Assembly: GCF_002973595.1 (NCBI RefSeq)
Contig: NZ_PVEO01000004.1
Location: 248,001-312,000, forward strand
Length of the DNA stretch: 64,000 nucleotides
Source: Jejuia pallidilutea
GTDB lineage: Bacteria > Bacteroidota > Bacteroidia > Flavobacteriales > Flavobacteriaceae
Direction of reading: 5' to 3'
Shown here piece by piece: positions 9,442 to 27,431 of this stretch. The translations under genes were made by a program, and so were the position numbers. The notes beneath the pieces were generated by a model. The model was given only the letters and a program-made list of their open reading frames with translations. It did not search any database and was not told the DNA's origin. Numbering within the stretch: the stretch's first letter is position 1; the number at the start of each line of letters is the position of its first letter.

Positions 9442-12114
9442 ATGAAATTTAAAGCCTCAATTTTTTTAGTCCTAATCTTAATGCTAAATGGTACTTTTTT
9501 GGCTGCACAACAATCCGGAGACCATCCTAGATTGTTTGCAACAAAAGGAGACCGACAAGCCATTTTGCATAAAATAGAAAATGAAGCTTGGGCGAAAGCC
9601 TCTTGGAATAAACTTTTAGAAACTATTGATGTTCATATAAACCGTCATGTTACCGACCCAGAGTGGATGGTATCGCGATTGGCTATGTATTGGAAAGACG
9701 GCGAACGTTATACTCAATGCTACATTAAGGGGCAAGATTGGGATTATGGAGAAGGCAATGCACCCGTACCCACGGTAAGGCTTCCCGGTATGCGTAAATG
9801 GAACGACTACCTAAACGTGCCTTTAGAGGACAGAACTCCGTATAACGAAACGGGAGATATGTGGGGCATTAGTCGTTCTAGTGGCGATAAAACGCCTGTA
9901 TTGGTGCCATACAAAGAATCAGGGCATATGATTCGCCAAAACAATATGGAAATTTTAAAATTGGCGGAGAAGTCGGCTTTTGCTTATTTCATTACCCAAG
10001 AAGAAAAATACGCTAAGTTTTCGTCCGATATCTTTTGGACATGGATGCTGGGGACGTATTACATGAACCCACCTTTAGATCCAAATGAATCTACTGGAGG
10101 TCCCGGAGGTTATAAACCAGGAGGGATTTTAGGCTATTACGATTACGAGGTGATTCACGACGATAGGCAAATACCTATGGCCATCACTTATGATTTTCTT
10201 TTTGATTATTTAAATGAGAATCCGCATAAACACTTAAAAGCACTCGACAAAAAACCGGTTGAAGTGGCCGGAGAGGTTTTTAAGAGATTCATTGAAATTG
10301 GTTTAGTACGCGGCGGAAAAAAAGGTAATTGGAACGTAAACCGATATAAAAATATTATTGGGAGCATTTTGGCTTTAGAATCTAATGCATTTTATGAGGA
10401 CGGAAAAGGTCGTGAGTATTACATTCCGTTTTATACTGAAAAATCTGGGGAGCACTATGCAGGCTTACCCGAAATCATGGCGAATTATGATGAGGTAACA
10501 GGTTTATGGCCAGAATCTCCGGGGTATGCTTCGGGTATGATTCCCTTTGTGTTAGATATGGGCTTGAAGCTTTATAAGTCTGGCGTGAATACCCTTTCGG
10601 GAAATCCGATGATTGCCAAAGCATCGATGGCCAATTTAGGGTGGTTGGATGCGCGTGGCAATTTGGTGGTGTTCGGCGATATGCGCGGAGGGCCTTCTAA
10701 CATGTCGGCTTTTGAATCGTTGTTAACCTATGCTACTTGGGAGGACGATACTGAAACCTCAAAAAAAATGGCAACGGTAATTCGTAAAAACATAGCTGCG
10801 GGTCAGTATGATAGGAATAATTCCGATTGGCAAGGTATTGTTTTCAATCAGCCCTTACCAGAATCAGGAAATGAGTTGCCGTTTCATAAAGCGGCTTATT
10901 CAGAGTTCCATAGGCATATGATTTTTAAAAATGGCAATGACGAAAAAAACGGCATGATGTTTACCCTGTATGGAGGGAAGAAAAAATCTCATTTATCTGA
11001 AAACGGATTGGCTATGCAGTTTTATGGAAACGCTTGGGCTATGGCACCCGATGCTTCGGCATACGAGTCGTATTGGTCTGATGATGCCGGTTACCACAGG
11101 GGTATATTAGGTTCCAATACCATTGTGCCAGGGTATAAATCAGGAGAGATAAAAGTAAATGCCATGGATCCGTGGGTAGATACCACCAAAGGATTTTATA
11201 ATACTACCGAAACATCTGAACATGTCTCTTTTGCTGATGTGTCAGCGGAAGAAAAAAGACGTTTGGTAGCTATGATTCGTACTTCAGAAACTTCTGGGTA
11301 TTATGTCGATATTTTTAGGTCCGACCAAAAGAATAACGATTACATCCATCATAACTTAGGAAATTCAATGGTACTGAAAGATGATTTAAATAACACATTG
11401 TCTTTGCAAAATGTTAACGATTTGGGTACCGAATATGATAAGAATTATAGCTTCTTCAAAAACCAAAGAAAAGTAAGTTATACAGAAGATTTTAATGCCA
11501 CTTGGACGGTAAATAATACGCAACCGGCGTTGGTGACCGATATGTGGATGATGGGTCAAGCCAACCGAGAGCTTTATGTGGTTGATGCTCCACCAACAAC
11601 GTTAAGAGAGGATGTAACTCCCGGGCAGGTGAATAAAAGTCCAGAGAAAACACCAACATTAATCGTGCGCCAAAATGGGATTAATGGAAAAAAACATCCG
11701 TTTGTTTCAGTTTTCGAAACGTACGAAACAGGTGAGAAATCTATTGAATCTATTTCTCGAATAGGGCAGTTTGTAGATTTGGTGGGTTTAAAAGTAGCAT
11801 CGAAAAACAGTATGCAGTTTATTTTAAGCGCTACCGATCAAGCCGTTTATAAGCCTTCAAAAGATTTAAGATTTCAGGGTACGTTTGCTGTGGCTTCCGA
11901 AAACAATGGGGTGTTCGAATATTTATATTTAGGAAAAGGAAACTTGGTTCAATATGGAGACTATAAAATAGAAGCCAAAAACGGAACGGTTTCTGCGGAG
12001 TTAAAATTCGAAAAAGGTAAATATTATTATTCTTCCGATAAACCCATTTCAATTCAGCTTAAAAATGGAAAGGCAAAAACCTATCCGGCAGGATATCATG
12101 TTGAAATTCAGTAA
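9442..12114 (+). CDS. Large heparinase II/III-like protein (copy 2, divergent active-site residues)
   Basis: An 890-residue secreted protein (signal peptide ending near F-L-A-A-Q-Q). It shares with its three relatives here the block D-P-E-W-M-V-S-R-L then A-P-V-P-T-V-R. The active-site region differs. Where the others have N-H-x-H-x-N-G this protein has S-H-L-S-E-N-G (His517 kept, second His replaced by Ser519). Where the others have P-A-H-N-T-V it has L-G-S-N-T-I (His replaced by Ser558). The N-N-W-N-L block also becomes G-N-W-N-V-N-R-Y. It may bind a different uronate, use a different mechanism or be non-catalytic. It starts a new unit after the 9328 terminator and is followed 9 bp later by copy 3. 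Confidence 0.77.
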   Translation: MKFKASIFLVLILMLNGTFLAAQQSGDHPRLFATKGDRQAILHKIENEAWAKASWNKLLETIDVHINRHVTDPEWMVSRLAMYWKDGERYTQCYIKGQDWDYGEGNAPVPTVRLPGMRKWNDYLNVPLEDRTPYNETGDMWGISRSSGDKTPVLVPYKESGHMIRQNNMEILKLAEKSAFAYFITQEEKYAKFSSDIFWTWMLGTYYMNPPLDPNESTGGPGGYKPGGILGYYDYEVIHDDRQIPMAITYDFLFDYLNENPHKHLKALDKKPVEVAGEVFKRFIEIGLVRGGKKGNWNVNRYKNIIGSILALESNAFYEDGKGREYYIPFYTEKSGEHYAGLPEIMANYDEVTGLWPESPGYASGMIPFVLDMGLKLYKSGVNTLSGNPMIAKASMANLGWLDARGNLVVFGDMRGGPSNMSAFESLLTYATWEDDTETSKKMATVIRKNIAAGQYDRNNSDWQGIVFNQPLPESGNELPFHKAAYSEFHRHMIFKNGNDEKNGMMFTLYGGKKKSHLSENGLAMQFYGNAWAMAPDASAYESYWSDDAGYHRGILGSNTIVPGYKSGEIKVNAMDPWVDTTKGFYNTTETSEHVSFADVSAEEKRRLVAMIRTSETSGYYVDIFRSDQKNNDYIHHNLGNSMVLKDDLNNTLSLQNVNDLGTEYDKNYSFFKNQRKVSYTEDFNATWTVNNTQPALVTDMWMMGQANRELYVVDAPPTTLREDVTPGQVNKSPEKTPTLIVRQNGINGKKHPFVSVFETYETGEKSIESISRIGQFVDLVGLKVASKNSMQFILSATDQAVYKPSKDLRFQGTFAVASENNGVFEYLYLGKGNLVQYGDYKIEAKNGTVSAELKFEKGKYYYSSDKPISIQLKNGKAKTYPAGYHVEIQ

Positions 12115-12123
12115 AAATTAAAA

Positions 12124-14910
12124 ATGAAAAAACTTAAAATATATATTGTTTCAGCGCTCTGTTTTTTGGGCTGTATTAATATGACGATAGCTCAGGATTT
12201 GGGGCATCCCCGAATTTATATTACCAACAATGCTAAAGACGATTTTTTACAGACGATACAAAACGTAGCTTGGAAAAAAGAGTTAGTTGAAAAGAAAAAA
12301 GAGCGACTCGAAAAATATATTAAACTGTGGAAAAACGACCCAGAATGGTTGGTATCGCGTTTGCAAATGAATTGGAAGACCAAGCATGACAAAGTGTTTT
12401 TACAGGGAGGAGACTTTTCGCATTCTGAAGGTTCTGCACCGGTGCCAACCGTGAGGTATTCGGGAACGCGGGATTGGGCTACCGATTATAACCGCCCAAA
12501 GCTGGAGGACGTAGAGCCCTATTTTGATGATCCTCGTGGTCTTTACTTAGAGCACAAAGAAACGGGCAAAAAGGAATGGATACATCCATCCAAAGGAGGG
12601 TTTGCCGTTGAAAAAATTAATGAAGAAATTATGAGTTTAGTGGCCGATGCTGCCTTTTTATATTGGCTTACTGGTGAAAAAACTTATGCAGAATTCGCTG
12701 CTCCAGTGTTTTTTACTTATATAGACGGAATGCATCACCGAGAGGCTCCAGTCGATTTAAAAAACTCCAACCAACAAAACATTTCGGGGTTAGCAACCTT
12801 TGAGGTAATTCATGAAGGCATCGTAATTCATTTAGTTACTGCTTACGATTTTCTATATAATTATTTTAAATCTGAAAATAGCGATTTATCAAATACAGCA
12901 TCGGTTTTTCAAAAATGGGCAGATCAAATTATAAAAAATGGTATTCCTGATAATAACTGGAACTTGTTTCAGGCCCGATTTTTAACTTATATCGCTCTGG
13001 TTTTAGAAAGTAATACAATGTATGAAAACGGAAAAGGTCGCGAGTATTATTTAGATTATACTTTTAATATTTCAACAGACAGACAAATTGCCGTAAGCGA
13101 ATCTTTAAATGTGTACGATCTAGAAACTGGTATTTGGCCCGAAAGTCCAACCTATTCGGTACACGTTATTACAACACTTTTAAAAATATTTACCTTACTA
13201 GACCACGTCACCAATGATAATGAAATATCTAAATATCCTATTTTAGAAAAAGCGGTATTGGCTTCATTTCAATATTTATTTCCATCAGGATATATGATTG
13301 GAGTAGGTGATGGTGGACATAAAATATTACCACCAGAAAATTTCGAACTGTTAATTGCTAATTATAGAAAGTACAACCAAAAGGAAAAAGAAGTATTAAT
13401 TTCTGGGTTCTTGTCTGAGTTTATTTCAAATAATTTATATGAAAGAAAAGCTAAGGATTTTTTCAATCTATTCTTTTATGTTGATGATATTGTTGACAGT
13501 AAAGCCGATTTAAATGCGATTACAACGCCAACGTTTTACGCACCCAACATAAGTATGTTTAACCAAAGAATTGGTCAAGGAAATAATGCGCTTATGCTTT
13601 CAACTGTGGGTTCTTACGGGAATCATGCACATGCCAATGGTATATCTATAGAACTGTTTGCTAATAATTATGTGCTTGGGCCAGATTCTGGTAAAGGCCC
13701 TAGTTACTGGCATCCAACCTTTAGAAATTATTACGCAAGAATGCCAGCCCATAATACGGTAATTGTAGATGGAACATCTAATTATAACAATATGCGTACG
13801 TACCACCCTCTTGCGTTAGATAATTGTTTTCCGGCATCGGGTGAGACTACTATTTTTGATAAGTTAACTTTTTCAAAAGTGTCGTTTGTAGAGCCCGAAA
13901 CAGTTTCAGATCAGCAACGATTTTCTGCCATAATAAAATCGAACACCGAAAAAGCCTATGTGGTAGATGTGTTTAGATCTCGTAAACAAAAAGGAGGTAA
14001 GCAAAAGCACGAATATATATATCGAAATATCGGACAAACTTTGGATGTTTTTGATGTAGCTTCCAACGGTTTAAAGTTTCAAAAAACAAGTGATTTAAGT
14101 TCCAAACAAGGAGATTTAATAGGGTATGATTTCTTTTCGGATAAAAAGAAAGCAATGACGTCCAAAGATGTTAATGCCATATTTACGTTAAAAGAAGATG
14201 ACACACCAAATTCTGTGATGAAGTTATGGATAAAGGGCAGTGAAAATCAAACTATTTATAAGGTTAAATCGCCAAATTCTAATGCTTTAAGTGAAGGGAC
14301 TGCGCCAAAGTCCATTTTAAAAGACTCGTTACAAACATTAATTGTTAAAAAGGATGAAGCTGCTTGGAATAATCCTTTTGCAGTAGTTTTTAACCCTTAT
14401 ATTGAAGGCGAAGAAAACCCGGTTAAAAATGTGTCGTATACCTCGTTAAAGGATTATCCTCAAACACAAATTATTGATGTGTCATTAGCAGATAACATCA
14501 CTTCAGATAGAATTATTGTAAATGCATCGGAACTTGATGTTGTAAAAACTAACGAGTTATATCAAAAAGGATTATTATCAATCATCAGAACTTCAAACAC
14601 TAACGAAACCCTGGAGTTTATGTTTTTATCTGGAGTTAGTAAATTCGATTATAAAAATTGGACAATTATAGCTTCTGGTGAGCCGGTTACAGTGTCTATC
14701 GAAAAAGTAGACGAGGGCTATGAAATTCAGAATAATAAACCAGTTACCATTAATATACCTTACACACAAGGTGATACGCGTGCTAAAATTTTGTTGTATG
14801 AAAACGGAAAGTTAGTTGCTACTAGAAATGCAGTATTAAATAGAAACAATTCTAATCTCCAATATTTTAAGTTGGAAAAAAACTATGATAAAGTCGTAAT
14901 AGCCCAGTAA
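12124..14910 (+). CDS. Large heparinase II/III-like protein (copy 3)
   Basis: A 928-residue secreted protein with a signal peptide ending near N-M-T-I-A-Q. It keeps the family landmarks: D-P-E-W-L-V-S-R, S-A-P-V-P-T-V-R, N-N-W-N-L-F-Q-A, G-N-H-A-H-A-N-G (His501, His503) and M-P-A-H-N-T-V (His543). The domain order is as for the copy at 2825: helical toroid, central beta-sandwich, C-terminal beta-rich tail. Likely a periplasmic lyase on a uronic-acid linkage; the PL family is not assigned. It lies 9 bp after copy 2 and 4 bp before an esterase, consistent with one operon. Confidence 0.8.
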   Translation: MKKLKIYIVSALCFLGCINMTIAQDLGHPRIYITNNAKDDFLQTIQNVAWKKELVEKKKERLEKYIKLWKNDPEWLVSRLQMNWKTKHDKVFLQGGDFSHSEGSAPVPTVRYSGTRDWATDYNRPKLEDVEPYFDDPRGLYLEHKETGKKEWIHPSKGGFAVEKINEEIMSLVADAAFLYWLTGEKTYAEFAAPVFFTYIDGMHHREAPVDLKNSNQQNISGLATFEVIHEGIVIHLVTAYDFLYNYFKSENSDLSNTASVFQKWADQIIKNGIPDNNWNLFQARFLTYIALVLESNTMYENGKGREYYLDYTFNISTDRQIAVSESLNVYDLETGIWPESPTYSVHVITTLLKIFTLLDHVTNDNEISKYPILEKAVLASFQYLFPSGYMIGVGDGGHKILPPENFELLIANYRKYNQKEKEVLISGFLSEFISNNLYERKAKDFFNLFFYVDDIVDSKADLNAITTPTFYAPNISMFNQRIGQGNNALMLSTVGSYGNHAHANGISIELFANNYVLGPDSGKGPSYWHPTFRNYYARMPAHNTVIVDGTSNYNNMRTYHPLALDNCFPASGETTIFDKLTFSKVSFVEPETVSDQQRFSAIIKSNTEKAYVVDVFRSRKQKGGKQKHEYIYRNIGQTLDVFDVASNGLKFQKTSDLSSKQGDLIGYDFFSDKKKAMTSKDVNAIFTLKEDDTPNSVMKLWIKGSENQTIYKVKSPNSNALSEGTAPKSILKDSLQTLIVKKDEAAWNNPFAVVFNPYIEGEENPVKNVSYTSLKDYPQTQIIDVSLADNITSDRIIVNASELDVVKTNELYQKGLLSIIRTSNTNETLEFMFLSGVSKFDYKNWTIIASGEPVTVSIEKVDEGYEIQNNKPVTINIPYTQGDTRAKILLYENGKLVATRNAVLNRNNSNLQYFKLEKNYDKVVIAQ

Positions 14911-15790: not shown

Positions 15791-18151
15791 ATGAAAAGAA
15801 TATTAGTTTTATTTTTAATTACAGTTCTAACATTTTCTTGTAATACAGAAGTGAACACGGTACAAATTTATGTATCAGCACAAGGTTCTGAAGCCAAAAC
15901 TGGAACCAAAGAACAACCATTTGCTACAATAGCAGACGCGATGCAAAAGGCTACCGAGTTAAAGGCAGAAGATGCAGATGTTAAGATTGTTATCAATGTA
16001 CTTCCAGGAGATTATCGTTTAAACGAAGCTATTACAATTTCACCTGTGCTAAATGGTTTAACGATTCAAGGCACAAGCGCTACTGAAGTGCATATTAAGG
16101 GTTCTAAATTATTAGCCCCTAAATGGGAAAAATATAAAGAAAATATCTACGTGAGTTCTGTCCCTGATGATTTAGAATTTGACCAACTCGTAGTAAACGG
16201 TAAAGCGCAAATATTGGCACGATATCCTAACTATAACGAAAATGGACACTATTGGCAAGGGTACGCTGCCGATGCTATTTCAAAAGAGCGATTAGCGTCG
16301 TGGGAACAACCCGATGGTGCTTTTTTTCATGCCTTACACCGCGGAAGATGGGGTGGCTATCATTTTAAAATCACTGGAGTAAATGCAGAAGGAGAAGCTA
16401 TTTTAGAGGGCGGACATCAAAATAACAGAGGTTCAAGATTTCATGATGAATACCGAATGGTTGAAAATGTTTTTGAAGAATTAGATAGTCCCGGAGAATG
16501 GTTTTTAGATAAAGACAGTGATAAATTATATTATTGGCCTTCAAACGGGGTGAATTTAGATACAGATGAATTTGAAGTAGCGGTATTAAAAGACTTAATT
16601 CAAGTAGAAGGCACATTAGAAAAACCAGTTAAACATGTAACTATAAAAAATATTTCGTTTGAAAATACCCAACGTACTTTCATGGAAGAATACGAACCTT
16701 TATTACGTAGCGATTGGACCATGTACAGAGGTGCAGTCCTGTTTTTTGAAGGTACAGAAAACTGTAAAGTGGAAAATAGCGTGTTCACCAATTTAGGAGG
16801 CAATGTAATTTTAGCAAGTAAATACAATAAAGGGCTAGAAATTGTGGGTAATCACATTTACGATTGTGGCGCCAGTGCAGTATCATTTGTTGGTGATCCT
16901 TCAGCTGTAAGATCACCTTCATTTAATTATGGCGAATTTGTTCCGTATAACGAAATGGATACAATTTCGGGTCCGAAAAACGAATTATTTCCACGTGAAT
17001 GTTTAGTTGAAAACAACCTAATTTACAGAATAGGAAGAATTGAAAAACAAACAGCAGGTGTGCAAATTTCAATGGCTATGGATATTACCGTACGTCATAA
17101 TAGTATTTACGATGTGCCACGAGCAGGTATTAATATTGGCGACGGTACTTGGGGCGGACACATTTTAGAGTACAATGATGTATTTAATACCGTTCTAGAA
17201 ACGAGCGACCATGGCTCTTTTAACTCTTGGGGGCGCGATCGTTTTTGGTTACCAAATCGAAGTAAAATGGATAGCTTAACCACAGCTATTCCAGATATGT
17301 ACACATGGGATGCCGTAAAAACAACCATTATTAGAAATAACCGTTTTCGTTGCGACCATGGGTGGGATATCGATTTAGATGATGGCTCTTCAAACTACCA
17401 TATTTATAATAATTTAATGTTGAATAGTGGACTTAAATTGCGTGAAGGATTTAACCGTATTGCCGAAAATAATATTATGGTTAATAATTCACTACACCCA
17501 CATGTGTGGTTTGCTAATAGTGAAGATGTATTTAAATATAACATTGTTGGGGCTACGTATCAAGATGTTCGTTTGTTGGGTTGGGGAAAAGAATTAGATT
17601 ATAATTTATTTCCAAACGAAGCCGCTATGATGAAGCCTCAAATTTATGATAGAGATGTAAATAGTGCATATGGCGATCCTATGTTTAAAGATCCAGAGCA
17701 TTTAGATTTTACAGTTGCTGAAAACTCACCAGCATTAAAATTAGGTTTTAAAAATTTCCCAATGGATAAATTTGGAGTACAAAAACCAGAATTAAAAAAA
17801 ATAGCTAAAACGCCAGAGGTTCCAACAATTAAAGATCCTTCTAGTACTAAAACCAGTCCGGAAGTAGCATGGTTACGAAACAAGCTAAAGAGTGTTGATT
17901 CTCATCAAGAACAATCTGCTTATGGTTTAAATACAGCGGAAGGTGTTATTGTGCTAAGAACTTGGAATGGTAGTCCAGCAGTACAAAATAACGGTATTAA
18001 AAAAGGCGATGTAATTTTAGAGGCTAACGGACAAAAAGTGAAAACCATTCAAGATTTTTTCAAAATAAATTCAAAAAATAAATCCAACAAATTAGATGTG
18101 GTTATCATGCGTAATCAATCGGAAATGAAAATAACTATTAATACTAAATAA
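15791..18151 (+). CDS. Right-handed beta-helix lipoprotein, GH141-like, with C-terminal PDZ domain
   Basis: A 786-residue lipoprotein (V-L-T-F-S-C near residue 17). The mature protein opens with Y-V-S-A-Q-G-S-E-A-K-T-G-T and P-F-A-T-I-A-D-A, the usual entry of large parallel beta-helix glycosidases such as GH141. Repeated N-x-I/V coils follow (about 270-620), with D-P-S-A-V-R-S-P in the middle. GH141 includes alpha-L-fucosidases and xylanases, which fits the adjoining GH29 gene. The last ~75 residues (from about 712) read as a PDZ domain: G-S-P-A-V, then G-I-K-K-G-D-V-I-L-E-A-N-G and V-V-I-M-R. A PDZ domain on a glycosidase is unusual. The stop abuts the GH29 start codon. Confidence 0.72.
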   Translation: MKRILVLFLITVLTFSCNTEVNTVQIYVSAQGSEAKTGTKEQPFATIADAMQKATELKAEDADVKIVINVLPGDYRLNEAITISPVLNGLTIQGTSATEVHIKGSKLLAPKWEKYKENIYVSSVPDDLEFDQLVVNGKAQILARYPNYNENGHYWQGYAADAISKERLASWEQPDGAFFHALHRGRWGGYHFKITGVNAEGEAILEGGHQNNRGSRFHDEYRMVENVFEELDSPGEWFLDKDSDKLYYWPSNGVNLDTDEFEVAVLKDLIQVEGTLEKPVKHVTIKNISFENTQRTFMEEYEPLLRSDWTMYRGAVLFFEGTENCKVENSVFTNLGGNVILASKYNKGLEIVGNHIYDCGASAVSFVGDPSAVRSPSFNYGEFVPYNEMDTISGPKNELFPRECLVENNLIYRIGRIEKQTAGVQISMAMDITVRHNSIYDVPRAGINIGDGTWGGHILEYNDVFNTVLETSDHGSFNSWGRDRFWLPNRSKMDSLTTAIPDMYTWDAVKTTIIRNNRFRCDHGWDIDLDDGSSNYHIYNNLMLNSGLKLREGFNRIAENNIMVNNSLHPHVWFANSEDVFKYNIVGATYQDVRLLGWGKELDYNLFPNEAAMMKPQIYDRDVNSAYGDPMFKDPEHLDFTVAENSPALKLGFKNFPMDKFGVQKPELKKIAKTPEVPTIKDPSSTKTSPEVAWLRNKLKSVDSHQEQSAYGLNTAEGVIVLRTWNGSPAVQNNGIKKGDVILEANGQKVKTIQDFFKINSKNKSNKLDVVIMRNQSEMKITINTK

Positions 18152-19522
18152 ATGAAAATGAAAACTTTAAAAAACATAGTACTATTTGCATTGGTTGTTA
18201 TAATGGGCACCAATTTAGGGTTTGCACAAAGCTCTAGCACTAAAAAGCTCTCTGATGATGAGCGTATGGCATGGTGGCGCGATTCTAAATTCGGAATGTT
18301 TATCCACTGGGGCGCATATTCAATAATTGGGGGCGAGCGCGGAACAAAAATAGCAGGCGGTGGCGCAGAATGGGCCATGGATAAATTAGATTATACCGTT
18401 GAGGAATACGAGAAATTCCCAAAAATGTTTAATCCAGTATTATTTGATGCTGATGCGTGGGTAACTATGGCTAAAAATGCTGGCATGAAGTATATTGTTA
18501 TTACCTCAAAGCATCATGAAGGGTTTTGCTTATGGGATTCAAAAGTAACAGATTACGACATTATGGATACTTCGCCATTTAAGCGCGATATAATAAAGGA
18601 ATTGGCAGAAGCGTGTAAAAAACAGGGTATTAAGTTTTGTTTTTACTATTCTATTGTAGATTGGCATCATCCGCAAGCGCAAGGAAACTTGTACCCAAAT
18701 TATAATATAGCACAACATGACGATCCGTCTGTGGTTAATCCAAAATTCCCGAAGTATTTTAAAAATTATATGAAGCCACAGGTTAAAGAATTATTAACCA
18801 ATTATGGCGATGTTGGCGTGGTTTGGTTTGATGGCGATTGGATTTCAGATTACACTACGGAAATGGGTAAAGAGCTTTACGATTTTATTAGAGATATTCA
18901 GCCAAATACCATTGTGAACAACAGAGTTGATAAAGGTAGAAAAGGTATGGAAGGTATGGATGCAGAAGGTAATTTTGCCGGAGATTTTGGAACACCAGAA
19001 CAAGAAATTCCAGATACAGGAATAGCTGAAGATTGGGAAGCTTGTATGACTATGAACGGAACTTGGGGGTACAAACCAGATGATAACAACTGGAAAAGTA
19101 GCGAAGATTTAATTCAAAAATTAGTGGATATTGTTTCTAAAGGTGGAAACTTTTTATTAAACATTGGTCCTGATGGTTACGGTAGATTTCCAGCACAAAG
19201 TATTCGTCGTTTAAATGCTATGGGGCAATGGACCAAAAAGAATGGGGAAGCCATTTATGGTGCTTCTGCTAGTCCGTTTGAAAGACCAAAATGGGGACGC
19301 TACACCAAAAAAGGAAATGTTATTTATGCTCATGTTTTCGATTGGCCAGAAAGCGGTTTATTAAAGTTGCATAAAGATATTAAGGTGAAAAAAGCTACCT
19401 TATTAACTAACCCAGATGTAGCGTTAGAAACATTAGCAACCTCTAGAGAGTTATTGGTTGAAGTTCCAGTTTTAGCACCAGACAATCCTGTATCTGTGGT
19501 TAAAATTGAATTAGCTAACTAA
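18152..19522 (+). CDS. GH29 alpha-L-fucosidase
   Basis: A 456-residue secreted enzyme (signal peptide ending G-F-A-Q-S) that releases alpha-L-fucose from oligosaccharides. The barrel starts with W-W-R-D-S-K-F-G-M-F-I-H-W-G, the classic GH29 opening. H-H-E-G-F-C-L-W lies near residue 121, and the nucleophile is Asp227 in V-V-W-F-D-G-D. The C-terminal beta-sandwich (about 379-456) starts P-K-W-G-R-Y-T and includes V-I-Y-A-H-V. It is closely mirrored by the N-terminus of the next gene product. The start codon follows the previous stop directly, implying translational coupling. A 16-bp terminator follows. Confidence 0.95.
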   Translation: MKMKTLKNIVLFALVVIMGTNLGFAQSSSTKKLSDDERMAWWRDSKFGMFIHWGAYSIIGGERGTKIAGGGAEWAMDKLDYTVEEYEKFPKMFNPVLFDADAWVTMAKNAGMKYIVITSKHHEGFCLWDSKVTDYDIMDTSPFKRDIIKELAEACKKQGIKFCFYYSIVDWHHPQAQGNLYPNYNIAQHDDPSVVNPKFPKYFKNYMKPQVKELLTNYGDVGVVWFDGDWISDYTTEMGKELYDFIRDIQPNTIVNNRVDKGRKGMEGMDAEGNFAGDFGTPEQEIPDTGIAEDWEACMTMNGTWGYKPDDNNWKSSEDLIQKLVDIVSKGGNFLLNIGPDGYGRFPAQSIRRLNAMGQWTKKNGEAIYGASASPFERPKWGRYTKKGNVIYAHVFDWPESGLLKLHKDIKVKKATLLTNPDVALETLATSRELLVEVPVLAPDNPVSVVKIELAN

Positions 19523-19546
19523 TACCAAATATGGTATATTAAAGAT

Positions 19547-19590
19547 AAAACAGGCAAATACCCTAGTGGTGTTTGCCTGTTTTAATTTAT
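19547..19590 (+). terminator. Strong Rho-independent terminator
   Basis: A 16-bp stem: left arm AAAACAGGCAAATACC (19547-19562), loop CTAGT, right arm GGTGTTTGCCTGTTTT (19568-19583), then AATTTATT. There is one G-U pair. It ends the 9442-19522 unit. A smaller inverted repeat ATACCA-AATA-TGGTAT lies just upstream at 19522-19537. Confidence 0.9.
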
Positions 19591-19653
19591 TATATCTAAA
19601 ATTAAAAGTAATTGTAGCTTTATATAATCAATTAAATTAAAGACATCGTAAAA

Positions 19654-20601
19654 ATGAATCTATCAAAGAAAATAATAATTGTTACCATAGCCATTATTTT
19701 TAATGTTTTGGTTGGGTTTGCTCAATCAAATAACTATGCTAAACCAGACTGGGGAGCGTATACTTCAGAAGGTGGGTTTATTTACGCACATGTTAATCAA
19801 TGGCCAAAAGACGGTAAATTGGTTATAGATAGAGCAATTAAACCAAGGGAAGCTAGGTTGGTGTCAGATCCTTCAAAAAAATTAAAAATAAAATTAATTG
19901 ATGGTAATTTAACTGTTTTACTGCCAAAAAACGAACCAGATGTTGAGGTTCCAATTATAAAAATTCAGTTGATACCTAATGATGATTGGGCAAATTTAAA
20001 ACGGTATAAAAAAGCAAATATGGCACTAAAATCCACAAGAGAAAAAGAAAACAGGGTAGTGTTTATGGGGAATTCTATCACCGAAAGATGGGTAGATTTT
20101 CATCCAGAGTTTTTTACCGAAAACAATTATGTTGGTAGAGGTATTAGCGGACAAACGTCGTCGCAAATGCTATTGAGGTTTAAACAAGATGTTATTAATT
20201 TAAATCCAGTAGCCGTAGTTATTCATGCAGGAACCAACGATATTGCTGGAAATAGAGGCCTCATAACTGTTCCTGAAATTGCCGATAATATTTTTTCAAT
20301 GGCCGAATTAGCCAAAGCGAATAACATAAAAGTAATTTTAGCATCTGTGCTTCCTGCTAGTAGTTATTCATGGAGCCCGTCTATAGAACCCATTGAAAAA
20401 ATTAGCGAACTTAATACGCTAATTGAAGCATATGCCAAAAAGCATAACATTGTGTATCTAGATTACTATTCTAAAATGGTAAATGATGAAAAAGGATTAA
20501 TAAAAGCCTATGGAAGAGATACAGTGCACCCTAATATTGAAGGGTATGCGATTATGGAACCTTTGGTTATTAAAGCGATACGAAAGGCATTAAAAAAATA
20601 A
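19654..20601 (+). CDS. SGNH/GDSL esterase with an N-terminal module shared with the GH29 C-terminus
   Basis: A 315-residue secreted protein (signal peptide ending V-G-F-A-Q). Residues ~28-108 (A-K-P-D-W-G-A-Y-T ... F-I-Y-A-H-V ... I-I-K-I-Q-L) align along their length with the C-terminal beta-sandwich of the GH29 gene just upstream. Residues ~134-315 form an SGNH hydrolase: block I with Ser141 (F-M-G-N-S-I-T-E), G-R-G-I-S-G-Q, H-A-G-T-N-D and the Asp289/His292 pair in D-T-V-H-P-N. It probably deacetylates sugars. The preceding terminator makes it a separate unit, and no -7 element is obvious in the 131-bp gap. Confidence 0.88.
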   Translation: MNLSKKIIIVTIAIIFNVLVGFAQSNNYAKPDWGAYTSEGGFIYAHVNQWPKDGKLVIDRAIKPREARLVSDPSKKLKIKLIDGNLTVLLPKNEPDVEVPIIKIQLIPNDDWANLKRYKKANMALKSTREKENRVVFMGNSITERWVDFHPEFFTENNYVGRGISGQTSSQMLLRFKQDVINLNPVAVVIHAGTNDIAGNRGLITVPEIADNIFSMAELAKANNIKVILASVLPASSYSWSPSIEPIEKISELNTLIEAYAKKHNIVYLDYYSKMVNDEKGLIKAYGRDTVHPNIEGYAIMEPLVIKAIRKALKK

Positions 20602-20730: not shown

Positions 20731-20752
20731 AAAATACGAATCGAATTTTAAA

Positions 20753-20845
20753 ATTATTACAATAAAAAGATTGGTAATTGTTCTAATCTGCACAGTAACT
20801 TTTGGTGTGGTGGCTCAAAATCGAAATTATTCAATAAAAAATTAG
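20753..20845 (+). pseudogene. Remnant signal-peptide reading frame
   Basis: A 30-codon frame that reads like a signal peptide, I-K-R-L-V-I-V-L-I-C-T-V-T-F-G-V-V-A-Q-N, then N-Y-S-I-K-N and a stop at 20843. It has no ATG; at the place where the start codon lies in the two equivalent promoters (51 bp after the palindrome) there is ATT. It is best read as the decayed 5' end of a secreted-protein gene that once used this promoter. A translated leader peptide with an ATT start is less likely. Confidence 0.45.
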
Positions 20846-20862: not shown

Positions 20863-22803
20863 ATGAGGTATTTAAAAACAATTTGTTTTTCATTAACGCT
20901 ATTTGTTGTGTTGGTTAATAAAGCACTTGCCCAAGATAACATTTCAACATTAAATATTAAATCCTTTTTAAGTCTTGTTGAAGGCGATGCCATTTATCCT
21001 AACAGTGCGCAAATAAAAATGCTTAAGGAGGTAATCCCAAATAATGCTTATCAACCAGCGCCTCATATAAACGATAGGGAATACTGGGAAAGAATAGCGC
21101 AGTCTAAATCGGGACAAGAATATGTAGCTTATGCCATTTCGCAAATAGATAAAAAGCCCGAAGTACCCATTTCTGATGAGATTTACAGGCGTGCAAATAA
21201 AGAAGGCAATCGCGGTATTTATAAACCCAGATATTACCGTACTATGGATCGTTTAGAGCGCTTCATTTTGGCCGAATGTATAGAAAACAAAGGTAGATTT
21301 ATACCCCAAGTTAGGGTGTATATGAAGGCCATTATGGACATGAAGTCTTGGTTACATCCTAATCACGACGATAATAATAACAGTAATTTAAAAGGTGAAA
21401 GTATTACTATAGATTTGGGTGCTCGTAAGTTTGGTACCGATTTAACCTTGGCCATCGTGCTTTTAGCTGATAGGCTTCCAAACGATCTTAAAACAGCGGC
21501 AGTTAATATGGTTCAAAAGCGTATAACAGATTCGTATTTGGCAAGTTGCAGAGATGAAAATAAATTAAACAGATGGATACGTAGCACAAGTAATTGGAAT
21601 TCGGTTTGTAATAGTGGTACTGTGTTTTCAACCATTTCAAATTCAAATAGCTATAAGGAGCGTTTGCTCGCTATTGGTTGTGCTATAAATAGTTCTAGAT
21701 ATTATTTAAGCGGATTTGGTGACGATGGCTACTGTTCAGAAGGTATTGGTTATTGGAGCTACGGATTTGGTCATTATTTGTATATGGCACAGTTTGTTTT
21801 AGATTATACCAATGGAAAAATAAATATGTTTAAACACAGCAATCCAGAAAAACTGAAGAATGTAGGTAACTTTCCTGAAAACTTCGAAATACAACAATTA
21901 AGATTTGCACCCTTTGCAGATGGTAACATAGTGGCGGCAAATACTAAAGGTAATTTCCCTTATGCATTATCTGCATATTATTATGGCGCTAGTGTACCAA
22001 CTGAATTTAAATTTGAAGAAGCTGCTGAACAACTAATAGCATGGAATCACCCTGAAATATTTTCAGAAAGAAAAAGTACAGAAAAACCACAGTTGCCAAA
22101 TGTTACATATTTTAACACTTCTGGAATGGTGATTTCTCGAGGAAAACAAGAAATACCGTTTTCTATAGCAATAAAAGCAGGCCATAATGCGGAGAACCAT
22201 AACCATAGCGATGTAGGTACTTACACCTTGTTGCTAGAGAAAGATTTTATTAGTGGCGATATAGGCGCGCCATCTTACACGGCAGGGGCCTTTTCTCCGC
22301 GTAATAAAGCTCGCAGCTCATGGGGGCATCCTGTACCTAGAATAAATAACATCTTACAATCTAATGGGTATGAATTTAAAGGAGAAGTTTTAAAAACAGA
22401 TTTTAAAGAAATGCGAGATGAAGTAGTGATGAATATTAAACCTGCCTATGAAGTTGATGGATTAAACGTCTTAGAACGTACCATGATAAACGATAAATCT
22501 GGTTATGGCGCTATTAGTGTTACCGATTATTTCGAAGCATCAAACAATGTTACGTTTGGAACGGCTTTAATGACGTTTTCAGAATATGAAATTATAAACA
22601 ACAATACCATTATTTTAACTAGTAAAAACCATAAGTTGAAAGTTGAAATTTCTAGTGTAGGAGGTGAAATTATAATTAACCCTGAGCCCGTCCCCGTAAA
22701 AGCATTACGCAATGGAAAAGATGCAAAACGAATTGGGTTAGATTTCAAAAAACCATTACAAACAGGAAGTGTAACGGTAAAATATACGCCTATATTCCAT
22801 TAG
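20863..22803 (+). CDS. Heparinase II/III family protein, 646 residues
   Basis: A secreted protein (signal peptide ending K-A-L-A-Q) with an N-terminal helical toroid (about 30-400) and a heparinase II/III C-terminal beta-sandwich starting near residue 405. The signature is G-H-N-A-E-N-H-N-H-S-D-V-G with His446, His448 and Asp450, followed by S-G-D-I-G-A-P-S-Y. This is closer to classic PL12/PL21-type proteins than to the ~900-residue group in this window. Expected role: beta-elimination of a uronic-acid-containing oligosaccharide in the periplasm. It stands alone behind promoter site A, with a remnant frame in its leader. Confidence 0.82.
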   Translation: MRYLKTICFSLTLFVVLVNKALAQDNISTLNIKSFLSLVEGDAIYPNSAQIKMLKEVIPNNAYQPAPHINDREYWERIAQSKSGQEYVAYAISQIDKKPEVPISDEIYRRANKEGNRGIYKPRYYRTMDRLERFILAECIENKGRFIPQVRVYMKAIMDMKSWLHPNHDDNNNSNLKGESITIDLGARKFGTDLTLAIVLLADRLPNDLKTAAVNMVQKRITDSYLASCRDENKLNRWIRSTSNWNSVCNSGTVFSTISNSNSYKERLLAIGCAINSSRYYLSGFGDDGYCSEGIGYWSYGFGHYLYMAQFVLDYTNGKINMFKHSNPEKLKNVGNFPENFEIQQLRFAPFADGNIVAANTKGNFPYALSAYYYGASVPTEFKFEEAAEQLIAWNHPEIFSERKSTEKPQLPNVTYFNTSGMVISRGKQEIPFSIAIKAGHNAENHNHSDVGTYTLLLEKDFISGDIGAPSYTAGAFSPRNKARSSWGHPVPRINNILQSNGYEFKGEVLKTDFKEMRDEVVMNIKPAYEVDGLNVLERTMINDKSGYGAISVTDYFEASNNVTFGTALMTFSEYEIINNNTIILTSKNHKLKVEISSVGGEIIINPEPVPVKALRNGKDAKRIGLDFKKPLQTGSVTVKYTPIFH

Positions 22804-23139: not shown

Positions 23140-25191
23140 ATGACTAAAAAAATTACATTATTACAAGGAATACTTTTTACCGTCTTACTGGTCTTTTCGC
23201 AACAAATTTATGCGCAAACAATTACGGTTAATTCATTAGAAGATTTATTGCTTTATCTAGATGATGATAATGTTGATGTTAAACTAGCACCCGGGACTTA
23301 CAGTATTACAGCATCTGATATTGCTGCTAATAAATTTTCTAATCCTTTATTTCTTTTCGAGGGGTCAAACAGTATTTTCGATTTTACGGGAGTTACTATA
23401 AATATTGATACTGAAGTGTTAAGATCTTTTGGGAATGTAGACGTTAACCAAATACAAATTTTAGGTAATAATAATGTACTTAAGAACTTAACCATGGAAG
23501 ACATAGGTACTACCGCACCAAGAAGAAGAGCCCAGAGTATTGTAATGGATGGTAGAGATAATAGGATAGAAGGATTTCATTTAACTGTTAGAGGATCTTA
23601 TCCATACGGTTATGGCGATGCTTTTGGAAAAGGAGGCGGTTCAGTTATCGCACACAGAAAACATTCAGGTATTTTAATTAGAGGGTTGCGAAATCATTTA
23701 AAAGACTGTAACATCATTTCACGTTCCTATGGCCATATTGTATTTATGCAAGCCGCAAGTCATCCTACCATTGAAGGCTGCTATATTGAGGGTGAAATGC
23801 GAACTACTGATGATATGTTGGCTGAAGAAGGTACAGGATCGCCCGCAGATAATGTTAATTTCCAAACCGTTTGGGGCTATAGGCTTCCCGCAGGTTATAT
23901 GATGAGTTTGCAGGAAGGTGGCATTAGAGCTTACAACGCAGGCACCACCTATATTGATGGCATAGAAATACAAAGAGGAACAGATAACCCAACCATTCTA
24001 AATTGCACGATAAAAAATGCAAGAACAGGAGTTACCTTAGTTCATGCCACTGGCACGAAACATGTTGAAGGTGTTACGCTTATAGGTTGTGAGCAGGGAT
24101 ATTCCATAGGTAGTGGTACTGTTATAAACTGTAGTAGCGATGCCCAATATGGTCCAGTATTAAGTTTTGCGTATTCAAATGATAAAAACACCAATATAGA
24201 TATAAACGTTTTGCCTGCAGAAGGAAGTTATTATAATGGCAGTGGAACTGTAGCTTACATTGGTGGTAGTTCTCATAATATTACTTTACGTGGAGGAGAT
24301 CCTTCTGCGAATCTTAGAATTCAGGTTGGTGGCGAAAAGAATAACGTACGATTACTTGGTGTTTCATCCAGTCAAAATCCGCTTACAGCATCAAATTTAG
24401 AACTTCATAATCTAACTGATTTTCCAATTACGTTAGATGCAATGAGTTCTAATGTTACAGGAGATTCTTGTGGGGTAGTTACAGATAATGGAACAAATAA
24501 TAATTTGGGGGCTTGTGATGATACTGCTCCCTTTCCAGATACTAATGCTACTTATTTTATAAATAACCCAAGATGGACAGCCAGATTAGGGGCAAACGGA
24601 GGAAATGAATTATTAATGTTGGGTGAGACAGAAACTAGTACTAACGCACAATGGAAGTTTACTCCTGTTCCTGGGGAAACAGGCTATTATTTTATAGATT
24701 GTGTTGGTGGTGGTGCTAAACCCAGAATTTCAGCTGATGCAGGCACGGTTTCAATAATGCAACCTAGTACGTATACCGATGATTCTGCAAAATGGAGATT
24801 TGATGTTTATGATAGCGATTTATTTCATATTACCAATAAAAACAATAGAAGATTACGAGGTTTCGATACTTATGTAGATGTTGTTACAACAGGTAGCTCA
24901 GGTTCGTATACAAGATTTTCGTTTACAAGTATGACGCTTAGTACCAATGATAATATTTTTAAGGATAACGTTTCTATTTTTCCAGTACCAACTTCAGATA
25001 TTTTAAACATCGAACTTAAAAATTCGGTTTCAGCCAAAATTTCAATTTTAGATTTAACCGGAAAAACACTTATTTTGGAAAATATAAATGGCAAAAAACA
25101 ATTACATCTAAACAGTTTACCATCGGGCATTTATGTTGTAAGAATTGAATCTGAAAACGTAGTATTCAATCAAAAAATAGTGAAACACTAA
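23140..25191 (+). CDS. T9SS-secreted right-handed beta-helix polysaccharide enzyme with ricin-like module
   Basis: A 683-residue protein: signal peptide (ending Q-I-Y-A-Q), parallel beta-helix (about 27-470), a beta-trefoil/ricin-like segment (about 475-600; Q-W-K-F and K-W-R-F repeats) and a T9SS type-A sorting domain (about 603-683; S-I-F-P-V-P-T-S, ending K-I-V-K-H). The helix opens L-A-P-G-T-Y like chondroitinase-B/PL6 proteins. Its own conserved blocks are R-S-Y-G-H-I-V-F-M-Q, E-G-C-Y-I-E-G-E-M-R-T and S-L-Q-E-G-G-I-R-A-Y, shared by four proteins here. I do not see the usual PL6 Lys/Arg active-site block, so the activity (lyase or fucanase-like hydrolase) is open. It probably acts outside the cell, early in breakdown. 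Confidence 0.72.
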   Translation: MTKKITLLQGILFTVLLVFSQQIYAQTITVNSLEDLLLYLDDDNVDVKLAPGTYSITASDIAANKFSNPLFLFEGSNSIFDFTGVTINIDTEVLRSFGNVDVNQIQILGNNNVLKNLTMEDIGTTAPRRRAQSIVMDGRDNRIEGFHLTVRGSYPYGYGDAFGKGGGSVIAHRKHSGILIRGLRNHLKDCNIISRSYGHIVFMQAASHPTIEGCYIEGEMRTTDDMLAEEGTGSPADNVNFQTVWGYRLPAGYMMSLQEGGIRAYNAGTTYIDGIEIQRGTDNPTILNCTIKNARTGVTLVHATGTKHVEGVTLIGCEQGYSIGSGTVINCSSDAQYGPVLSFAYSNDKNTNIDINVLPAEGSYYNGSGTVAYIGGSSHNITLRGGDPSANLRIQVGGEKNNVRLLGVSSSQNPLTASNLELHNLTDFPITLDAMSSNVTGDSCGVVTDNGTNNNLGACDDTAPFPDTNATYFINNPRWTARLGANGGNELLMLGETETSTNAQWKFTPVPGETGYYFIDCVGGGAKPRISADAGTVSIMQPSTYTDDSAKWRFDVYDSDLFHITNKNNRRLRGFDTYVDVVTTGSSGSYTRFSFTSMTLSTNDNIFKDNVSIFPVPTSDILNIELKNSVSAKISILDLTGKTLILENINGKKQLHLNSLPSGIYVVRIESENVVFNQKIVKH

Positions 25192-25346: not shown

Positions 25347-27431
25347 ATGAAGAAAAATTACACTTTACTCATAACGGGTATTATAGCCATGTTTGTGCTT
25401 TTTGTACAGGAAGTTAAAGCACAGACTATAACAGTAAATTCTTTAGAAGATTTATTGCCTTATCTAGATGATGATAATGTTGATGTAAAATTAGCACCTG
25501 GAAACTATTCCATTAGTGCTTTTGATATTACAGCAGGAAAATTCTCTAATCCATTGCTTCTATTTGAAGGATCTAACAGTACTTACGATTTTACAGGTGC
25601 TAAAATTAGTATTAATACGTTTGTATTTACAAAATTTGGTAATGTAGATGTGAAGGAAATTCAAATATTAGGTAATAACAATGTGCTTAAAAACTTAACC
25701 ATGGAGGATATAGGTAATACAAGGCCAACAAGAACTGCATTAGGAATTGCCATGGATGGAAGGGATAATTTAATAGAAGGCTTTCATTTAACAGTACGTG
25801 GGTCTTACCCATACGGTTACGGAGATGCTTTTGGAAAAGGAGGAACAAATACTGTAATTAAGCATTATAAACACTCCGGTATTTTAATACGTGGACTAAG
25901 AAACCATTTAAAAAACACAACGGTAATTTCACGTTCTTATGGGCATTGTGTATTTATGCAAGCCGCAAGTTACCCTATAATTGAAGGATGCTATATAGAA
26001 GGTGAAATGCGTACAACAGATGATATGCTAGCAGAAACATCAGGACCTGCTTATGATAAAGGTTTTATGACTACTTGGGGCTACAAATTACCTCCAGGAT
26101 ACATGATGAGTTTGCAGGAAGGTGGTATTAGGGCTTACAATGCCGGAACAACTTATATTGATGGTGTTGAGATTCAGCGCGGAACCGATAATCCAACCGT
26201 AAAAAACTGTACCATTAAAAATGCTAGAACTGGAGTTGTGCTTGTTCATGCTACAGGCAAGAAACACGTAGAAAATTGTGTGGTTTTGGGTTGCGAATCG
26301 GGGTATTCCATAGGCTCTGGTACTGTATTAAACTGTGGTGCTGATGCAATCTATGGGCCTGTTTATAAAAATGCCTATGCAAGCGATACAGGGTATAGCG
26401 CAGATATTACTATTTTACCACCAAGTGATGATTATTACAACGGTCATGGTGCAATAGCATATATTGGAGGAAAAGAACATAATCTTACTTTTAGATCTGC
26501 GGAAACAGATTTTCCAAGCGATTTAAAGATTATGATGGCTGGAGATCTACAAGGTTTACGAGTGTTGAATGGTAGTAATGCATCACAAAACAATCATACT
26601 GTTAGGGATGTGTTCTTAAAAAATTTAACAAATTTTCCTGTGGTTTTACATGCCGATGCAACCAATAATCGTGTGCAAGAATGTGATGCTTCAGATGTGA
26701 TTAATAACGGTTCTGGAAACAGTGTAGAATCTCTAGATTGCGCTTCCGCAAATATAGCTTTAACAGGAGCAGCAATACAATCCTCAACAGATTACTCTGG
26801 TTTAGCAAATAGAGCTATAGATGGAAATACCAATGGTAATTACAACAATAATTCAGTAACCCACACAAATCCATCTGATACTGATGCTTGGTGGCAAGTA
26901 AACTTAAACTCAGAGCAAGCTATAGGAGATATAGTAATTTACAACAGAACAGGATCTACATCTTTGAGGTTAGCCGACTTTGAAGTTAAGGTTTTTGATG
27001 CTAATGGTATAGAAACATTTTCATATGTATACGATGAACTTTTGGCACCTAGCCCTTCCACCACTATTAATGCAGGAGGCGCCATGGGAAAAAGTATAAA
27101 AATTATTCAATTAAATAATAGTTATGCCTTATCTCTGGCAGAAGTTCAGGTTTTTGCATCTTCTTTATCAGTTAAAGATATTAGTAAAGCTCTTAGTTTG
27201 TACCCTAATCCTGTAAAGAATGAGCTTTATATTTCGATAAGCAAGATGAATTTCAACCTAGATAGCACTAAAATTAATGTGTATGCTTTAAGCGGACAAA
27301 AGGTATTAGAATTAAAACCAATGCGAGCAAAAGACATGGTTGTTGATGTATCGCAATTAACTAAAGGCGTTTATCTTTTAAACATAAGCGACGGACAAAT
27401 AACGGCAACTAAAAAACTAGTGAAATTGTAA
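25347..27431 (+). CDS. T9SS-secreted beta-helix enzyme with F-type lectin module
   Basis: A 694-residue paralogue of the previous gene; the first ~440 residues are highly similar (e.g. N-V-D-V-K-L-A-P-G, G-S-Y-P-Y-G-Y-G-D-A-F-G-K-G-G). The accessory module differs. Residues ~470-620 are an F-type (fucolectin) domain: N-R-A-I-D-G-N-T-N-G, V-T-H-T-N, W-W-Q-V-N-L and Y-N-R-T-G-S-T-S-L-R. The classic fucose motif ends R-x-D-x4-R; here it is R-T-G-x4-R. A T9SS sorting domain closes the protein (L-S-L-Y-P-N-P-V, ending K-K-L-V-K-L). The lectin suggests docking on a fucose-containing polymer. It has its own operator and terminator. Confidence 0.75.
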   Translation: MKKNYTLLITGIIAMFVLFVQEVKAQTITVNSLEDLLPYLDDDNVDVKLAPGNYSISAFDITAGKFSNPLLLFEGSNSTYDFTGAKISINTFVFTKFGNVDVKEIQILGNNNVLKNLTMEDIGNTRPTRTALGIAMDGRDNLIEGFHLTVRGSYPYGYGDAFGKGGTNTVIKHYKHSGILIRGLRNHLKNTTVISRSYGHCVFMQAASYPIIEGCYIEGEMRTTDDMLAETSGPAYDKGFMTTWGYKLPPGYMMSLQEGGIRAYNAGTTYIDGVEIQRGTDNPTVKNCTIKNARTGVVLVHATGKKHVENCVVLGCESGYSIGSGTVLNCGADAIYGPVYKNAYASDTGYSADITILPPSDDYYNGHGAIAYIGGKEHNLTFRSAETDFPSDLKIMMAGDLQGLRVLNGSNASQNNHTVRDVFLKNLTNFPVVLHADATNNRVQECDASDVINNGSGNSVESLDCASANIALTGAAIQSSTDYSGLANRAIDGNTNGNYNNNSVTHTNPSDTDAWWQVNLNSEQAIGDIVIYNRTGSTSLRLADFEVKVFDANGIETFSYVYDELLAPSPSTTINAGGAMGKSIKIIQLNNSYALSLAEVQVFASSLSVKDISKALSLYPNPVKNELYISISKMNFNLDSTKINVYALSGQKVLELKPMRAKDMVVDVSQLTKGVYLLNISDGQITATKKLVKL

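Follow-up and report, generated by a model that had tools for sequence, protein, structure and literature searches.

A secreted SGNH esterase of a fucan-type locus in Jejuia pallidilutea, probably a GH29-SGNH fusion enzyme that has lost its fucosidase barrel

Classic alpha-L-fucosidases of glycoside hydrolase (GH) family GH29, such as those in Protein Data Bank (PDB) entries 2wvv and 6gn6, consist of a catalytic barrel (PF01120) followed by a C-terminal Fucosidase_C module (PF16757). In the available part of PMC12786026, GH29, GH95 and GH141 enzymes and S1 sulfatases are named in fucoidan degraders, with a gene cluster of Wenyingzhuangia fucanilytica as the example, and acetylation of fucose is described as hindering the GH141 endo-fucanases of Wenyingzhuangia. 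As far as that text goes, the cluster shares GH29, GH95, a GH141-like protein and several sulfatases with a 64,000-nucleotide stretch of the genome of Jejuia pallidilutea (Flavobacteriaceae; contig NZ_PVEO01000004.1, positions 248,001 to 312,000, forward strand), which was analysed as a whole and is called the window here. The window contains a GH29 fucosidase with the classic barrel-module order and module sequence, followed by a gene for an SGNH esterase that bears a related module at its N-terminus (Table 1). Comparison with relatives indicates that this esterase is probably the descendant of a bifunctional GH29-SGNH enzyme after loss of the barrel, now acting as a secreted O-acetyl esterase.

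The first-pass annotation of the window, made from the sequence alone, had noted that the C-terminus of the fucosidase aligns with the N-terminal part of the next protein. BLASTP bears this out: residues 376-454 of the GH29 protein and 28-106 of the esterase align without a gap, 30 of 79 positions being identical (38%) and 46 of 79 positive (E 4e-17, single comparison), and the module is C-terminal in the one enzyme and N-terminal in the other, as described. When the whole 4.1 Mb genome was searched with the esterase at E <= 0.001, the esterase itself and the 3' end of this GH29 gene (E 4.5e-13) were recovered and nothing else. In Pfam scans the fucosidase matched PF01120 (351.8 bits, cut-off 25.2, residues 29-366) and PF16757 (27.9 bits, cut-off 25.6, residues 383-444), and the esterase matched PF13472 (84.2 bits, cut-off 32.9) and gave no PF01120 match, the barrel being absent. 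Its PF16757 score lies under the cut-off (18.7 bits, E 0.0026; 21.3 bits for the stretch 19723-20040 alone), and the esterases of two related loci, L118 and L148, score 27.4 and 24.9 bits. Homology of the esterase module to Fucosidase_C rests on the BLASTP alignment and the module tree, not on the Pfam score.

The esterase module begins three residues past the 'AQ' of the signal peptide. Both catalytic domains of the pair retain their motifs. VVWFDGDW and GTPEQE, in which the catalytic residues of GH29 presumably lie, are present in 16 of the 16 paired GH29s listed. GNSIT, GTND and D-x-x-H of the SGNH domain are intact in 25 of 25 proteins checked, L121 having DTVHPS, off the stricter D..HPN pattern; we take the blocks of Ser141, Asn195 and Asp289/His292 to be the catalytic ones of the window esterase.

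The structural model of the esterase had a mean predicted local distance difference test (pLDDT) value of 75.3, with ten-residue blocks at 81-90 over residues 31-100 and at 72 over 101-110, and its module strands lie at residues 34-39, 42-47, 55-57, 64-69, 72-82, 85-89 and 101-106. The GH29 model was poor (mean pLDDT 47, blocks of 47-69 from residue 381 onward), its weakly modelled module strands lying at 383-387, 390-396, 403-406, 412-417, 424-428, 434-437 and 447-454. In the structure comparison proposed by the first-pass annotation, the strands of the two modules agree in register by eye, but the GH29 model is too weak for a claim about the fold. Rows returned by Foldseek (best 50 of 1815) and VIA-align (50 entries) were SGNH-type chains, judged by title and aligned length or range, and the absence of GH29 rows there is uninformative about the module. 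A profile of the esterase modules run against the PDB placed GH29 chains first (9rzx 1.1e-4, 2wvs 2.2e-4).

Module-SGNH proteins occur at 26 distinct loci, and GH29 is fused or encoded directly upstream in all of them. Eighteen are GH29-esterase pairs with the esterase just downstream of GH29, and eight, from three genera, are single polypeptides of 655-683 amino acids in the order GH29, Fucosidase_C, SGNH; PF01120, PF16757 and PF13472 were found on one chain in each of the three fusions scanned. The linkage agrees with the previous description of a GH29 C-terminal module carried by an SGNH esterase, the search for module-esterase combinations elsewhere that had been suggested was productive, and the arrangement named as contrary to it, a module common on SGNH enzymes far from GH29 genes, did not appear. 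The sampling comprised 397 genomes of a family draw and 82 of six genus draws, with overlap between them, and covers part of the family. Within the 397 Flavobacteriaceae genomes the module gave 57 matches in 31 genomes, namely 44 GH29 proteins and 13 module-SGNH proteins, ten of the latter in a GH29-esterase pair (window included) and three as one-polypeptide fusions; the genus draws contributed five further fusions and three new pairs. A contig scan with the esterase query yielded 45 loci, 37 of which match only from residue 96 on, i.e. the SGNH domain alone. The remaining eight, in Maribacter, Algibacter, Cellulophaga and Tamlana species, bear the module and have GH29 directly upstream in every case. 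Duplicates were merged in the locus count (L049 with L007, L054 with L008, L053 with L009; L136 and L137 are 100% identical to L005 and L004).

Outside Flavobacteriaceae no module-SGNH protein was found at E <= 1e-8 in an order-wide draw of 395 genomes, where the six that matched were all of that family, and none in a phylum-wide draw of 395 genomes, where 17 of 17 module matches outside the family were GH29 proteins. Proteins L090-L092, L094, L095 and L099-L101 of the phylum sample (629-785 amino acids) were considered as further fusions and rejected, since the esterase query matches their module only; they are GH29 proteins of other families in the phylum, in which the module is followed by a different extension, presumably chitobiase/PA14-like.

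Two esterases retain GH29 sequence outside the module. That of L148 (330 amino acids) starts with a GH29-like signal peptide and the KKLSD of the GH29 N-terminus, continues with the end of the barrel (ETIYGSS..), and ends with module and SGNH domain. Aligned end to end with the fused protein of L117, it is identical at 213 of 330 residues, with one 327-residue deletion (residues 36-362 of the fusion, the barrel) and one two-residue gap. Its first 31 residues scored 72 against L117, 46-67 against the other fusions of lineage B (defined below), 49 against the GH29 of its own neighbour gene and 24-66 against other paired GH29s; the maximum against 406 other secreted N-termini was 37. In the esterase of L118 (350 amino acids) the last helix of the GH29 barrel is kept between signal peptide and module. 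Its local score was 56-78 against the family's GH29s other than five outgroup rows, with a null maximum of 47 in 500 shuffles; B fusions reached 73-78, its own neighbour GH29 66, and the five outgroup GH29s 69, 67, 61, 58 and 15. These intermediate forms indicate that a barrel was excised from a longer chain. Such remnants are absent from the other esterases, whose signal peptides are still GH29-like: none of 86 others scored as high as the mean of paired, of B-fused or of solo GH29s, and the two fusions of lineage A do not share the likeness. This comparison used 14 of 15 esterases, that of L118 and three solo GH29s having been omitted as their peptides are off the pattern; with a cruder cut the figure was 1 of 176 for paired and fused GH29s and 14% for solo ones.

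Phylogenetic trees were obtained for barrels (37 rows), modules (52 rows, 80 columns) and SGNH domains (49 rows), each with 15 of the 18 pairs and all eight fusions; L138, L144 and L148 postdate these trees, and L144 and L148 entered a rooted tree of module plus SGNH, L138 none. In the barrel tree six fusions form a clade (98/90), the B fusions, outside the clade of lineage A (100/100), whose members are the 15 paired GH29s, a single solo GH29 and the two A fusions, L115 and L116. Constraining A and B barrels together without the other solo GH29s gave p 0.014 in the approximately unbiased (AU) test. Descent of all fusions (L115/L116 with L113/L114) from one event was tried and discarded, a single fusion clade being rejected on the barrel tree (AU p 0.002); L115/L116 may represent a second, perhaps older, fusion or a re-fusion of a pair (SGNH AU p 0.17). 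In the module tree the 15 esterase modules and the six B-fusion modules form one clade (98/93), the fused L113 falling among the esterases (99/98), and the neighbouring GH29 modules group with lineage A (97/84). Forcing esterase and lineage A modules together was 19.2 log-likelihood units worse (AU p 0.0485). The SGNH tree, which takes 26 of the 37 module-less loci, sets the domains of pairs and fusions on one side of the branch from these 26 (99/95). The rooted tree, with eight of the 37 as outgroup and L115/L116 omitted, has five B fusions branching first, then L113 with 17 esterases (94/91).

Residue conservation in the module differs with the presence of the barrel (column counts omit the five outgroup rows). 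All 32 barrel-attached modules have Arg383 and Phe396 (GH29 numbering); among the 15 barrel-less ones the Arg is never found and the Phe in four. Lys387, equally invariant in the 32, is Glu in 14 of 15 esterases. Contact with the barrel is the likely reason, as judged from sequence, for the conservation of Arg383 and Phe396, and the loss of such conserved, possibly barrel-contacting residues suggests that the esterase module is at least partly a leftover, perhaps mainly a structural cap. The core of the module (P-WG-YT, H, W-P, P) does not vary, either in the barrel-attached set or in the 15 esterases.

From these comparisons, derivation of the esterase from a GH29-SGNH chain by barrel loss appears quite probable. 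The ancestor would have been a secreted bifunctional chain of GH29 barrel, Fucosidase_C module and SGNH esterase, an architecture that persists as one polypeptide in relatives. A second GH29, of lineage A, may have been present in the same locus and made the barrel of the fusion redundant; an in-frame internal deletion would then have left signal peptide, module and SGNH domain, and further trimming with relaxed constraint on the possibly barrel-contacting residues would have given the present esterase. The deletion may have happened once or more often. The corresponding stages can be compared in living species: a fucosidase alone, its fusion with an esterase, a fusion that is partly erased, and an esterase without barrel beside a second fucosidase.

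Several observations weigh against this history. The module offers only 80 columns, and the AU test against grouping with the neighbours is marginal (p 0.0485, as above); raw identity puts the modules of L114 and L110, two B fusions, closer to solo GH29s (0.53 for each) than to the esterases (0.48 and 0.47), and of the three B fusions so compared L113 alone lies closer to the esterases. With the paired GH29 of L003, which belongs to lineage A, the L118 helix scores 78, equal to the best B fusion, so that this helix shows GH29 descent but not which lineage; the L148 head scores 66 with it, more than with four of the six B fusions (L113, 46). L118 and L148 form one clade (100/100), i.e. the remnants come from a single part of the tree, and the esterases group together weakly (63/82), so that a single deletion is weakly supported. 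The B fusions as one clade are not firmly rejected (p 0.055), and the intermediate that this history predicts, an intact B fusion with an A-type GH29 next to it, was found in no sampled genome. As to activity, the nearest solved natural SGNH relatives are, by title, only putative acylhydrolases or GDSL-like lipases.

The first-pass annotation had instead proposed local duplication of the 3' end of the neighbouring GH29 gene, joined ahead of an SGNH esterase gene. Such a copy would account for the adjacency of the two genes in all 18 pairs and for the 38% module identity, the L118 helix would fit a copied 3' end equally well, and the AU result against it is, as said, marginal. The esterase modules, however, group with the B fusions and not with their neighbours (98/93), and L148 and L118 keep GH29 sequence beyond the module; the signal peptide and KKLSD in the L148 head would not be supplied by a 3'-end copy, and this head fits L117 (72) above its own neighbour (49), though the L003 GH29 reaches 66. 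Duplication is accordingly regarded as very unlikely. If instead the two genes were ancestral, fusions could have arisen later by recombination between the module copies, with loss of the gap and one module. The fused L115/L116, with A-type barrel and module, are the expected product of such recombination, and these two themselves may have arisen in this way (SGNH AU p 0.17); the module of L113 is GH29-like in columns 1-27 (0.73 to paired GH29s vs 0.65 to esterases) and esterase-like thereafter (0.56 to esterases vs 0.37 to paired GH29s). A general origin of this kind is rather unlikely. The barrel tree has no B-type GH29 among its 15 paired ones, the rooted tree places five B fusions at its base, the fusions would need to have regained Arg383 and Phe396 or taken them over from the GH29 copy, and the remnants in L118 and L148 imply an earlier barrel on the same chain.

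Other explanations concern the role of the module. It might have been selected as a carbohydrate-binding or targeting module that guides the esterase to fucosylated chains, in keeping with its retention at 26 of 26 loci, a count that is not independent as the loci were partly found by the module, and with its invariant core in 15 of 15 esterases. The same core in barrel-attached modules is what fold maintenance would give, a binding site was not identified and no carbohydrate-binding module family matched the esterase in Pfam; targeting seems unlikely. Distinctly unlikely, too, is the reading of the esterase as a split half still working with a fucosidase, the module letting it assemble with the separately encoded, better-adapted neighbour GH29. 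If true, a fixed fusion would have become an exchangeable two-protein unit, and barrel excision would be a way for polysaccharide-utilization loci to swap catalytic domains. Finally, chance likeness, or a module widespread in SGNH esterases, would accord with the sub-threshold Pfam score; the E value of 4e-17, the 37 of 45 scan loci matching the SGNH domain only, the division of the 57 family matches into 13 module-SGNH and 44 GH29 proteins and the 17 of 17 GH29 proteins outside the family refute it at this sampling, and it is almost certainly wrong. Barrel loss from a GH29-SGNH chain remains the preferred origin of the esterase.

From its family and gene neighbourhood, the window esterase is likely a carbohydrate O-acetyl esterase. 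Linkage to GH29 is good evidence that esterase and fucosidase share the same material, and the signal peptide together with a locus of fucosidases and sulfatases makes action on the same chains as GH29 the best guess, fucan being the substrate to which we incline. The secreted enzyme would remove acetyls from fucose-containing sulfated oligosaccharides, letting the adjacent GH29 and other enzymes of the locus act, and it is a concrete candidate for the deacetylation step when sulfated algal polysaccharides that contain fucose are digested. Against the AxeA1 acetylxylan esterase model NF042968 it scored 28.2 bits, far under the equivalog cut-off of 700.

Table 1 Features of the GH29-esterase pair in the window (window positions).
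Feature	Position	Strand	Evidence
GH29 alpha-L-fucosidase (lineage A), 456 amino acids: signal peptide, barrel and Fucosidase_C module	18152..19522	+	Pfam, barrel tree
GH29 C-terminal Fucosidase_C module, residues 371-456	19262..19519	+	Pfam, BLASTP
Terminator-like hairpin, 17-pair stem, in the GH29/esterase gap	19546..19584	+	scan and gap alignment
Secreted module-SGNH esterase, 315 amino acids, read as barrel-less remnant of a GH29-SGNH fusion	19654..20601	+	Pfam, 26 loci, intermediates L118 and L148
Esterase signal peptide, residues 1-24, GH29-like	19654..19725	+	signal-peptide comparison
Esterase N-terminal Fucosidase_C-derived module, residues 28-107, seven strands in model	19735..19974	+	BLASTP, module tree, model
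SGNH hydrolase domain, residues 110-313; GNSIT (Ser141), GTND (Asn195), DTVH (Asp289/His292)	19981..20592	+	phmmer, VIA-align, motifs

The window is a series of genes for carbohydrate breakdown, almost all of them on the + strand, that encode sulfatases, GH97, GH43, GH39, GH28, GH95, GH31, GH116, GH141-like and heparinase-type proteins and esterases, and is best read as a sulfated-fucan-type locus. Of 14 pairs examined in addition to that of the window, 12 have a homologue of the heparinase-type gene 12124-14910 upstream, as do all five of the fusion loci examined. The GH141-like gene is the immediate upstream neighbour of GH29 in all 14 of these pairs and lies between the heparinase-type gene and the fusion in one of the five fusion loci. 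By these shared upstream genes, fusion and pair hold similar places in related loci. The GH141-like beta-helix protein of the window (15791-18151; GH141_M 27.1 bits, cut-off 27) has a C-terminal PDZ domain (PF13180, residues 714-784); its homologues in the 14 other pairs have 786-819 amino acids. Another GH29-family protein, L086 (G000:C4:245324-245590), is encoded about 2.4 kb before the window in a frame of 599 amino acids, with a module match of 48 bits and 39% identity to the window GH29.

The gap between GH29 and esterase measures 131 bp in the window and 75-215 bp over 15 pairs. By eye, a hairpin is present in this gap in all 15 (window, L003-L010, L118, L119 and L121-L124), and a scan found hairpin plus T run in eight of them; the stems are mostly related, around AACAGGCAAACACC/GGTGTTTGCCTGTT, that of L118 being different. 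The hairpin could be a conserved terminator or an mRNA end setting the levels of GH29 and esterase apart. Rfam gave nothing near the gathering score over the gap (12 sub-threshold rows), and a promoter scan gave 2 matches vs 2.2 expected. Downstream of the esterase, the second forward frame of the gap to the next gene has a stretch (20750-20845) that resembles a signal peptide but has no start codon; it ends in VVAQNRNYSIKN, followed by a stop, and may be what is left of a gene for a secreted protein.

Elsewhere in the window, the tandem genes 23140-25191 and 25347-27431 encode clearly related proteins of the right-handed beta-helix type, each with a Por secretion tail. The region that separates helix from tail shows a weak, sub-cut-off ricin-type match in one and an F5/8-type domain in the other. 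Three large proteins, at 9442-12114, 20863-22803 and 36099-38843, have a signal-peptide-like N-terminus, gave no Pfam match and recur in related loci; they are candidate new enzyme families for loci of this type.

Among solved natural structures, the SGNH domain is closest to Bacteroides BF3764 (4ppy; E 1.9e-66 in phmmer) and BACUNI_03406 (4iyj; Z 28.6 in VIA-align), titled 'putative acylhydrolases', and BT0569 (4hf7), titled 'GDSL-like lipase', all 52-55% identical with Z 28.0-28.6. Their chains of 205-209 residues align from esterase residue 107-109 on, and so are without the module, and the titles give no tested function. The first structural relative with a named activity, by entry title, is the sialate O-acetylesterase of Bacteroides (Phocaeicola) vulgatus (6njc, 7pzg), which has the same SGNH fold (Z 20.3-20.7) but differs in its distant sequence (23-24% identity), in an aligned part without the module and in the other substrate expected. 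The main text of PMC12786026 does not contain the word esterase, and so does not speak of a GH29-esterase fusion in such terms. No report of a GH29-SGNH fusion appeared among the open-access papers listed, as judged by titles and abstract openings, so that absence from print is unproven. Probably unlike the classic GH29 enzymes with Fucosidase_C, the system described here has an SGNH esterase after the module, either on the same chain or as a separate barrel-less gene. A parallel in design, from the portion of PMC7110780 available, is given by the fused acetyl-feruloyl esterases of Bacteroidetes, which likewise unite two activities on one chain, two xylan esterases there and a fucosidase with an esterase here.

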